From positions 1 to 35,069 of the IMG/VR virus record IMGVR_UViG_3300044697_000068: DNA of 35,069 nucleotides, one strand, 5' to 3'. The notes under the pieces are model-generated. The model was not told the origin of the DNA. It saw only the letters and a program-made list of their open reading frames with translations, and did not search any database. This document shows positions 1 through 35,069 of the stretch, one piece after another; positions within the stretch are counted from its first letter, which is position 1; each line of letters begins with the position of its first letter. This stretch comes from a virus. The position numbers and the translations under genes were made by a program.

Positions 1-127
1 AGAGCCTAAGACCGCCATCTCTTCAATAGCTAGTTTGTTGCTTGTCTCGAAAATGGTGATGGCTGAGGAGACTGATACCGCATAGTCTATGCGTTGATGG
101 ATACATTGGTACAACGGTACAATTGTA
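1..127. repeat. terminal direct repeat (left copy), circular closure
   Basis: The first 127 bases are identical to bases 34943-35069. An exact terminal overlap of this odd length is typical of an assembler k-mer overlap on a circular molecule and not of a biological terminal repeat, so the real circle is about 34,942 bp. The repeat lies inside parA. Confidence 0.93.
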
Positions 128-642
128 CTTTTGTTCAAATATTCCATGACCTCTTTTTCGGCTTTTGTTCCCTTGATGCACCCATTTAAAACATAAAATG
201 TTTTGGGCGATTGGGTGGATAAAACAGCATGCCGAGTACTTATAATTTCTACGATATCTTTGCTTGCCCATACATCAAACGGGGATGGTTGCAATGGAAT
301 TAAAACTAAGTCAGATATGCTAATAGCAGCCCCAATGATTTCATTCAAAGTGCCAGGCGTATCGATGAACACATAATCGTATTCAGATTTTTTTAAAATT
401 TCTGGTATTTGTAAGATAGCTGATTTTTTATCAGCAACAGTCATATTAAGAAAAGCACTACCCCCAGCATCATGCCAATCCCTCATAGAACCTTGTGTGT
501 CAGCGTCTACCAAAAGTACTTTTGTAGCTTTGTCATTCTCTACATTTTTACTTTTGTACAATTGTACATACCTAGCCAAGTTAATACACAGGGTTGATTT
601 ACCAGCCCCACCTTTTGAGTTAATTAGTGAAATTATCTTCAA
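1..642 (-). CDS. parA: ParA-type partition ATPase (5' part; continues at 34942)
   Basis: ParA/MinD-family ATPase that drives plasmid segregation along the nucleoid. It starts at a TTG (640-642) behind a GGGGGAGAG ribosome site. The in-window part encodes residues 1-214; across the circle it ends at 34916, giving 222 aa. Visible motifs are the deviant Walker A KGGAGKS (residues 10-16), Walker A' VDADTQGS (45-52) and Walker B VFIDTPG (91-97). There is no N-terminal helix-turn-helix, so it resembles the short type Ib ParA proteins that pair with a small RHH partner rather than a large ParB. The 53-aa gene upstream overlaps its start by 23 nt. Its TGA stop overlaps the ATG of the RHH gene at 34919, so the pair is translationally coupled. 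Window truncation is artificial. Confidence 0.93.
   Translation of the reverse strand, partial: MKIISLINSKGGAGKSTLCINLARYVQLYKSKNVENDKATKVLLVDADTQGSMRDWHDAGGSAFLNMTVADKKSAILQIPEILKKSEYDYVFIDTPGTLNEIIGAAISISDLVLIPLQPSPFDVWASKDIVEIISTRHAVLSTQSPKTFYVLNGCIKGTKAEKEVMEYLNKSTIVPLYQCIHQRIDYAVSVSSAITIFETSNKLAIEEMAVLGS
117..567. repeat. palindromic repeats inside parA
   Basis: GTACAATTGTAC, a perfect 12-bp palindrome, occurs at 117-128 and again at 556-567. A 14-bp palindrome CAAAAGTACTTTTG lies at 511-524. The string TACTTTTGT is shared around all three sites. All lie within the parA coding sequence. They could be binding sites for the RHH partner or simply reflect codon choice; function is not shown. 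Confidence 0.4.
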
Positions 643-34324: not shown

Positions 34325-34510
34325 TTATGGACCAGCTTGTTCGTTGCGATGTTCGCCGCGCATTTCGCCGTCCGCTTCACCTGGCATGCAATATTTAGGC
34401 TGCATGTCATACTGCTTTTTTACCATTTTACCGTACATAGATGGCACGCCATTGTAATGCGTGTTATCGAGACGGCCTTCACTGTAGTCTTTAACTTCGC
34501 GATCGCTCAT
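34325..34510 (-). CDS. small hydrophilic protein, first gene of late region (61 aa)
   Basis: I start at the ATG at 34508-34510 (MSDREVKDYSEG), preceded by AAGGGGAAATAAC; an earlier frame from 34543 has no ribosome site. The protein is very hydrophilic, with EGRLDNTHYNGVPSMYGKMV and a charged tail (GEADGEMRGEHRNEQAGP). Probably disordered. It precedes the late terminator and terS. Function unknown. Confidence 0.6.
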   Translation of the reverse strand: MSDREVKDYSEGRLDNTHYNGVPSMYGKMVKKQYDMQPKYCMPGEADGEMRGEHRNEQAGP

Positions 34511-34552
34511 GTTATTTCCCCTTGTTGTGGTGTAATTACCCAAGACCAGTTT

Positions 34553-34583
34553 ACTATAAACGTCTAAGTTAAAGAAATGTCAA
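34553..34583 (-). promoter_or_regulatory. candidate late promoter
   Basis: On the minus strand TTGACA (rc of 34578-34583) and TATAGT (rc of 34553-34558) with a long 19-bp spacer, reading into the 61-aa gene and the late operon. The -35 box is in the inverted repeat 34575-34642. Confidence 0.4.
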
Positions 34584-34642
34584 GTACTTTAGGGTGGCAC
34601 CTTAGCTTGGGTTTTGGGTGACACCCTACTATTTTGACATTT
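34575..34642. repeat. symmetrical inverted-repeat region between partition and late genes
   Basis: AAATGTCAA (34575-34583) mirrors TTGACATTT (34634-34642), and AGGGTGGCACC (34591-34601) mirrors GGGTGACACCCT (34616-34627) with one mismatch. Each inner arm is itself a palindrome of form GGTGNCACC. Candidate centromere (parS-like) or operator for an RHH protein. Confidence 0.65.
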
Positions 34643-34663
34643 ATAACCGCTAGTGGTTATAAA
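34634..34663 (+). promoter_or_regulatory. candidate rightward promoter with embedded palindrome
   Basis: TTGACA (34634-34639), 18-bp spacer, TATAAA (34658-34663). Between and over them TTTATAACC (34640-34648) is mirrored by GGTTATAAA (34655-34663). It points into the RHH gene from its 3' side, so it would make an antisense RNA, or it is an operator only. Confidence 0.45.
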
Positions 34664-34703
34664 CAATCTCTAGTTTATATGTGAGTTATTTAAATTTCAT
34701 TTG

Positions 34704-34919
34704 TCAGTAATCCTTGTTGTTTGCAATATAGCTCGTTAACATCTCAATGAACATGTCTCCTATGCTCATATCTTTGTTTATACCGATCCGTTTCAATTTT
34801 TTGTATTGCTCGGTCGGCACATAAAAGTGAACCTGGGATTTTCGTTTTGACATTACTGCCTGGGCTGCAGCATCAAAGCCAAGGTTGATACCAGCTCGCC
34901 CTTTTTCTAAATTCTTCAT
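34704..34919 (-). CDS. ribbon-helix-helix partner of ParA, centromere-binding protein (71 aa)
   Basis: The C-terminal 45 residues form an RHH fold: strand SQVHFYVPTEQYKKLKRIGI, helix, then SIGDMFIEMLTSYIANN. The N-terminal 25 residues are a basic flexible arm (MKNLEKGRAGINLGFDAAAQ), which in ParG-type proteins stimulates the ParA ATPase. Its ATG overlaps the parA stop (ATGA). ParA plus small RHH partner is the type Ib partition system. It probably binds the repeats at 34575-34663 and represses its own operon. Confidence 0.78.
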   Translation of the reverse strand: MKNLEKGRAGINLGFDAAAQAVMSKRKSQVHFYVPTEQYKKLKRIGINKDMSIGDMFIEMLTSYIANNKDY

Positions 34920-35069
34920 TCGCCGAGTTCCTTTAATAAAAGAGAGCCTAAGACCGCCATCTCTTCAATAGCTAGTTTGTTGCTTGTCTCGAAAATGGTG
35001 ATGGCTGAGGAGACTGATACCGCATAGTCTATGCGTTGATGGATACATTGGTACAACGGTACAATTGTA
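34916..35069 (-). CDS. parA: parA 3' part (second terminal copy)
   Basis: The same gene as at 1-642; this end shows the C-terminal 50 residues and the stop (tail VLGSLLLKELGE, TGA at 34916-34918). Bases 34943-35069 duplicate 1-127. Only one copy exists on the circle. Confidence 0.9.
   Translation of the reverse strand, partial: TIVPLYQCIHQRIDYAVSVSSAITIFETSNKLAIEEMAVLGSLLLKELGE
34943..35069. repeat. terminal direct repeat (right copy)
   Basis: Exact copy of bases 1-127; see the left copy. Confidence 0.93.

Follow-up and report, generated by a model that had tools for sequence, protein, structure and literature searches.

Divergent sigma70 switch regions of phages, which govern early/late or immunity decisions, combine two outward promoters with two similar palindromes and a further palindrome lying over one of the promoters. 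Late promoters of the P2/Ogr type have no -35 element and carry TGT-N12-ACA some 55 bp before the start. Partition sites of type Ib, such as parH of TP228, parS of pSM19035 and the direct repeats of pCXC100, lie beside genes for a small ParA and an RHH protein. Type Ib centromeres are built from short direct and inverted repeats and are usually located upstream of the operon, and RHH centromere-binding proteins double as repressors, with the parS sites of pSM19035 overlapping promoters (PMC5016525).

The region described here, positions 34553-34663 of IMG/VR record IMGVR_UViG_3300044697_000068 (the window, analysed over its whole length of 35,069 nucleotides), lies at the junction between a pair of partition genes and the late operon of a virus. 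An earlier first-pass annotation of the same DNA had described this region as a highly symmetrical control or centromere site that might join plasmid partition and late gene control. The analysis favours a late-operon promoter-operator and places the candidate centromere elsewhere, within parA.

Genome context and the conserved late operon

The window is a virus contig whose first 127 bases are identical to its last 127, so that the genome is circular or circularly permuted and measures 34,942 bp once the 127-bp terminal repeat is counted only once. It encodes TerS, TerL, portal (phrog_156), scaffold, coat, head-closure and ejection proteins, a set that identifies it as a P22-like podovirus, and RecE/RecT-like genes lie within its rightward early block. 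No integrase was recognised among the window proteins tested, and the presence of ParA and an RHH protein suggests a phage-plasmid lifestyle. Searches with the 71-aa RHH protein, with ParA and with the whole region returned no close relatives. About 40 bp separate the control region from the first gene of the late operon, which follows it downstream.

34325-34510, minus strand: 61-aa open reading frame with its ATG at 34510, first late-operon gene, followed by TerS, TerL and portal

Homologues of the 61-aa protein occur in about 80 IMG/VR contigs and in one Legionellales contig, BMAG01000039.1 (L109). A profile search based on an alignment (A1) of 11 homologues, 53-71% identical to the window protein, retrieved 108 viral stretches and, as the only bacterial contig, BMAG01000039.1. 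The core of the protein reads HYNGVPSMYG...QPKYC.PG...RNEQ.GP. Pfam gave no match for the 61-aa protein, PHROGs none for a longer 72-aa reading, and phage and plasmid records none for the 61-aa protein. Strong conservation of this first gene of the packaging operon indicates that the region fronts a conserved late operon.

BMAG01000039.1 is a 36.5-kb contig from a Legionellales single-cell genome and carries both the 61-aa late gene and a ParA-RHH pair. Its source, the soil single-cell genome BBSC-SA01, has been classed as Legionellales (PMC7453286), and this order is likely the host group of these phages.

Promoter boxes and palindromes

Five elements make up the region.

34553-34583, minus strand: P-, proposed late promoter, with TTGACA at 34583-34578, a 19-bp spacer and the -10 box TATAGT at 34558-34553
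34590-34604, no strand: first operator-like palindrome, TAGGGTGGCACCTTA, with a single mismatch to TAGGGTGNCACCCTA and 6 bp away from the -35 box of P-
34614-34628, no strand: second operator-like palindrome, TTGGGTGACACCCTA, with a single mismatch to TAGGGTGNCACCCTA and 5 bp away from the -35 box of P+
34634-34663, plus strand: P+, outward promoter-like site, TTGACA (34634-34639), an 18-bp spacer and TATAAA, matching the consensus at 11 of 12 positions
34640-34663, no strand: 24-bp near-palindrome TTTATAACCGCTAGTGGTTATAAA, operator-like and present as a single copy, spanning the spacer and -10 box of P+

The mirrored, outward-pointing TTGACA boxes, the two GGTGNCACC palindromes in inverted repeat and the 24-bp near-palindrome over the second -10 box, all proposed in the first-pass annotation, are present and, as it claimed, exceed chance. 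The two copies of GGTGNCACC, at 34593-34601 and 34617-34625, are the only ones in the genome, where first-order shuffles predict 0.2. Together they build the inverted repeat TAGGGTGGCACC/GGTGACACCCTA, with 11 of 12 positions matching and the arms 15 nt apart. Because the region holds two copies of one self-complementary 15-bp near-palindrome, TAGGGTGNCACCCTA, with centres 24 bp apart, this inverted repeat arises automatically. In TTTATAACCGCTAGTGGTTATAAA, 11 of the 12 arm positions match, which makes it the best palindrome with 12-bp arms in the genome; a shuffled genome would be expected to contain 0.3 of this quality. For paired palindromes the region scores 24, compared with at most 18 in 20 shuffles. 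Operator-like palindromes beyond chance expectation are a feature of divergent promoter-operators.

The same holds for two outward promoter matches inside about 110 bp. P- also matches the consensus at 11 of 12 positions when read as TTGACA-19-TATAGT, and both P- and P+ are among the five such sites in the genome at spacings of 16-19, a class for which about 1.9 are expected. A promoter scan lists neither P- nor P+, because it required T at position 6 of the -10 box and allowed no spacer longer than 18. The whole forms a near-dyad: -35 box, 6 bp, palindrome, 9 bp, palindrome, 5 bp, -35 box. No TGT-N12-ACA spacing of the P2/Ogr type was found in the region by reading, and perfect TTGACA boxes stand there instead. 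Genes to be driven are found on one side, that of the late operon; P+ runs antisense into parB/parA, with no open reading frame of at least 40 aa close downstream. Since P+ has no gene to drive, the region counts as a late promoter-operator that has an additional outward promoter match, and falls short of a full divergent operon pair.

An exact search of IMG/VR with the core of the 24-bp palindrome gave eight matches, every one inside an open reading frame. Pairs of GGTGNCACC 10-20 bp apart were also sought in IMG/VR; those among the matches listed lay in unrelated repeat contexts, most of them G+C-rich.

The corresponding region in relatives

The stretches before the 61-aa gene were compared across 75 IMG/VR loci, the window included. 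Of the 75, 34 have an extended -10-like motif, TRTGNTAYNYT, compared with 3.6 in shuffles. Palindrome pairs built on a CAAnnnTTG core and separated by 17-20 bp occur in 28 (1.2 in shuffles; one in 74 control coding stretches), and the spacing is exactly 19 bp in 22 of these 28. In the loci read closely (such as L097 and L109), the pairs overlap the -35 and -10 boxes of a promoter that faces a leftward gene block, away from the late genes. The outer arms of the pairs differ between phages and stay largely palindromic, a pattern that would be expected of operators whose regulators diversify in specificity. The window has no CAAnnnTTG pair and carries the TAGGGTGNCACCCTA pair at the corresponding place. 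Its palindrome sequences were found in no relative examined; position and general layout are kept, the sites themselves are not.

The closest relative by portal is L044, with 85% identity over 127 aa (45% in ParA). Its gene order is parA, RHH gene, a divergent gene block, the control region, the 61-aa gene, TerS and TerL. The divergent gene block is absent from the window, and no homologues of its proteins were found there. Apart from the 10-bp GTAATTACAC near the ribosome site, the window region shares nothing with that of L044.

Several further elements were observed upstream of the 61-aa gene. Immediately upstream of the ribosome site, 44 of 78 loci (L030-L109) have a near-invariant palindrome, TTATTAATCGATTAATAA (core TTAATCGATTAA), with apparently compensated variants in L035, L058 and L074. 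A DnaA-box-like inverted pair, TTATCCACA...TGTGGATAA, lies beside the late promoter in L030, L036, L059, L099 and others, and a GATTTTGTGGATA-like motif occurs in 27 of 75 loci. The leaders of L037, L043, L048, L070, L081 and L082 hold a structured-looking, partly conserved element of about 115 nt, AGGTGCACGA...GGCCGTAATAG, which has no Rfam match at the gathering score. In L053, a tRNA-Val(CAC) occupies the late-operon leader position.

A proposed late-operon switch

On balance, it is reasonably probable that 34553-34663 serves the late operon as its promoter-operator, where early/partition genes meet late genes, with P+ probably an orphaned divergent promoter. This reading draws on elements that are rarer than chance and on the conserved first gene of the terminase/portal operon downstream, as well as on the promoter-like motifs and paired palindromes that relatives carry before the same gene and on the gene order of L044. 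Several features weigh against it. The better -10 box of P- sits at a spacing of 19 bp, the alternative at 17 bp (TTTATA) being poor; the 24-bp spacing and inter-promoter site of the window differ from the overlapping 19-bp pairs of its relatives; P+ faces no gene; the palindrome sequences recur in no relative examined; and no gene for the regulator was recognised.

In the mechanism proposed, a dimeric DNA-binding protein on the two TAGGGTGNCACCCTA sites, about -50 and -75 from each start, would switch late transcription. P+ would be closed by a second protein, or by a second binding mode, at the 24-bp palindrome. It is probably a remnant of the divergent promoter that drives the leftward block in relatives; as that block is present in L044 and missing from the window, P+ would have been left facing the back of parB, where it may now yield at most antisense RNA to parB/parA.

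The regulator may be one of the two small RHH proteins or an early protein that lacks annotation. Pfam and PHROGs searches of the early open reading frames recognised no CI-like repressor or late activator, and family searches gave weak RHH hits. Like the sites of the window, the Arc and Mnt operators of P22 are phage palindromes, and an Arc-like RHH protein of 57 aa is among the products of the window. The promoter of its gene contains no GGTGNCACC, and nothing therefore points to autoregulation through this site. The region marks the likely late-gene switch of a little-known podovirus group and supplies defined candidate operator sequences.

Partition genes and a candidate centromere

The partition genes and their repeats are arranged across the contig join.

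34704-34919, minus strand: 71-aa RHH protein, ParB/ParG-like, based on weak Pfam RHH hits, a structural model and Foldseek
34916-34942, minus strand: 3' end of parA, a gene of 223 codons with a TTG start at 642 that crosses the contig join (phrog_164)
1-642, minus strand: main part of parA
99-138, minus strand: array 1, five 8-bp units of consensus WTGTACAA within parA, candidate centromere part 1
515-569, minus strand: array 2, about six 8-bp units of consensus WTGTACAA within parA, candidate centromere part 2

In the model of the 71-aa protein, a strand-like segment is followed by two helices; the top solved structures in Foldseek include ORF56, ParG, Arc and CopG, at moderate model confidence (pLDDT 67) and with no E-value under 0.05. 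A PDB sequence search with the RHH alignment returned nothing.

ParA was found in 7 of 36 searched relatives, one of which is a whole bacterial genome, with its phage-contig ParA in L237. In those read in detail, an RHH-like gene of about 68 aa follows ParA, and most of these carry 8-bp tandem repeats (ACATCAAG and variants) over the parA start and at the RHH end. Loci with iterons at one or both of these places are L231-L235 and L237; L044 has them at 661-705, with ATAcAGAT at the RHH end.

In the window, the only two strong 8-bp arrays of shared consensus lie in parA. They score 30 and 29 of 40, whereas none of 60 order-2 Markov genomes exceeded 26, and array 2 falls at a 9-aa insertion that the homologues of this ParA lack. 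Synonymous recoding of parA, repeated 2,000 times, brought the top array up to 30 in 0.15% of cases and the runner-up to 29 in none, figures that flatter the WTGTACAA arrays, as the consensus was derived from the same data. Across 34553-34663, at most 15 of 28 positions match at any lag of 6-12, compared with 20-22 in most relatives' arrays and 19-20 in the parA of the window. No periodic repeat array is present in 34500-34760, which holds only the two palindromes. Because the region lacks periodicity and the two strongest 8-bp arrays are inside parA, the centromere likely lies in the parA arrays and not in 34553-34663.

The 71-aa RHH protein could instead bind the palindromes as a parS/parC site, perhaps repressing late genes in the manner of omega of pSM19035, a reading that appears unlikely. 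The region does adjoin the ParA and RHH gene pair, as type Ib centromeres do, and it follows the RHH gene directly, as first annotated, with the RHH stop at 34704 about 40 bp away; relatives with par genes, and L044, have 8-bp repeats at the end of the RHH gene, in a corresponding place, and RHH proteins that bind centromeres also act as repressors. Against it stand the lack of 8-bp periodicity in the region, the confinement of the strong arrays to parA, and palindromes that do not resemble the WTGTACAA consensus. The idea of one site that joins partition and late control is thus not borne out, since the par-linked arrays lie elsewhere. The control half of the original description is supported by position, promoter matches and the analogous paired operators of relatives; the centromere half is not supported, as the region has no iterons. 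A joint-site reading in which the 71-aa RHH protein, besides binding the parA iterons, would also bind the TAGGGTGNCACCCTA pair and silence the late operon during the plasmid state, so that losing the partition complex would switch the late genes on, is very improbable.

Possible RNA structure and antisense transcription

The leftward RNA of 34540-34685 folds better than its shuffles (z -2.75), and its two hairpins alone give z of -3.3 and -4.0. Located where the par transcript ends, such hairpins might act as a terminator, processing site or attenuator that separates early from late expression, but this function is improbable. Neither hairpin is followed by a U-tract, as the leftward strand continues with AAAGUAC and UGUCAAAA; a terminator scan found no intrinsic terminator in the region, nor is there a G+C hairpin with a U-tract, and Rfam gave no match in the region at E up to 1. 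Consensus promoter boxes flank the hairpin, and each GGTG hairpin arm is itself palindromic; such self-palindromic GGTGNCACC arms are explained by protein binding and not by an RNA hairpin. Use of P+ as a working antisense promoter that silences parAB under repression through the 24-bp palindrome is decidedly improbable: TTGACA-18-TATAAA is among the best promoter matches of the genome, the palindrome lies exactly over it and no sense ORF follows closely, but P+ is explicable as the leftover of a divergent operon still kept in L044.

Comparison with known systems

The promoter-operator reading places the window close to the divergent sigma70 switch regions of phages, with which it shares two outward promoters, two similar palindromes and another palindrome over one promoter. 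It differs from them in an operator unlike that of any relative examined and in that no repressor gene was found beside it. The divergent regions of L097, L109 and L043 stand, as in the window, before the same conserved 61-aa gene and contain paired palindromes of about 15 bp. In these relatives, the palindromes have the CAAnnnTTG core and 19-bp spacing, overlap divergent -35/-10 boxes and serve real divergent genes, whereas the window has TAGGGTGNCACCCTA at 24-bp spacing, palindromes between the -35 boxes and no divergent genes. The group therefore shares the position of its control site and not the sequence, which fits diversifying regulator specificity.

Compared with type Ib partition sites, the window has the same small ParA and RHH neighbours, but 34553-34663 lacks short tandem repeats, and the candidate repeats lie inside parA. 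The site is unusually symmetrical yet of a familiar type, and the iterons within parA are the more interesting by-product, as they point to a candidate centromere within the gene for the partition ATPase.
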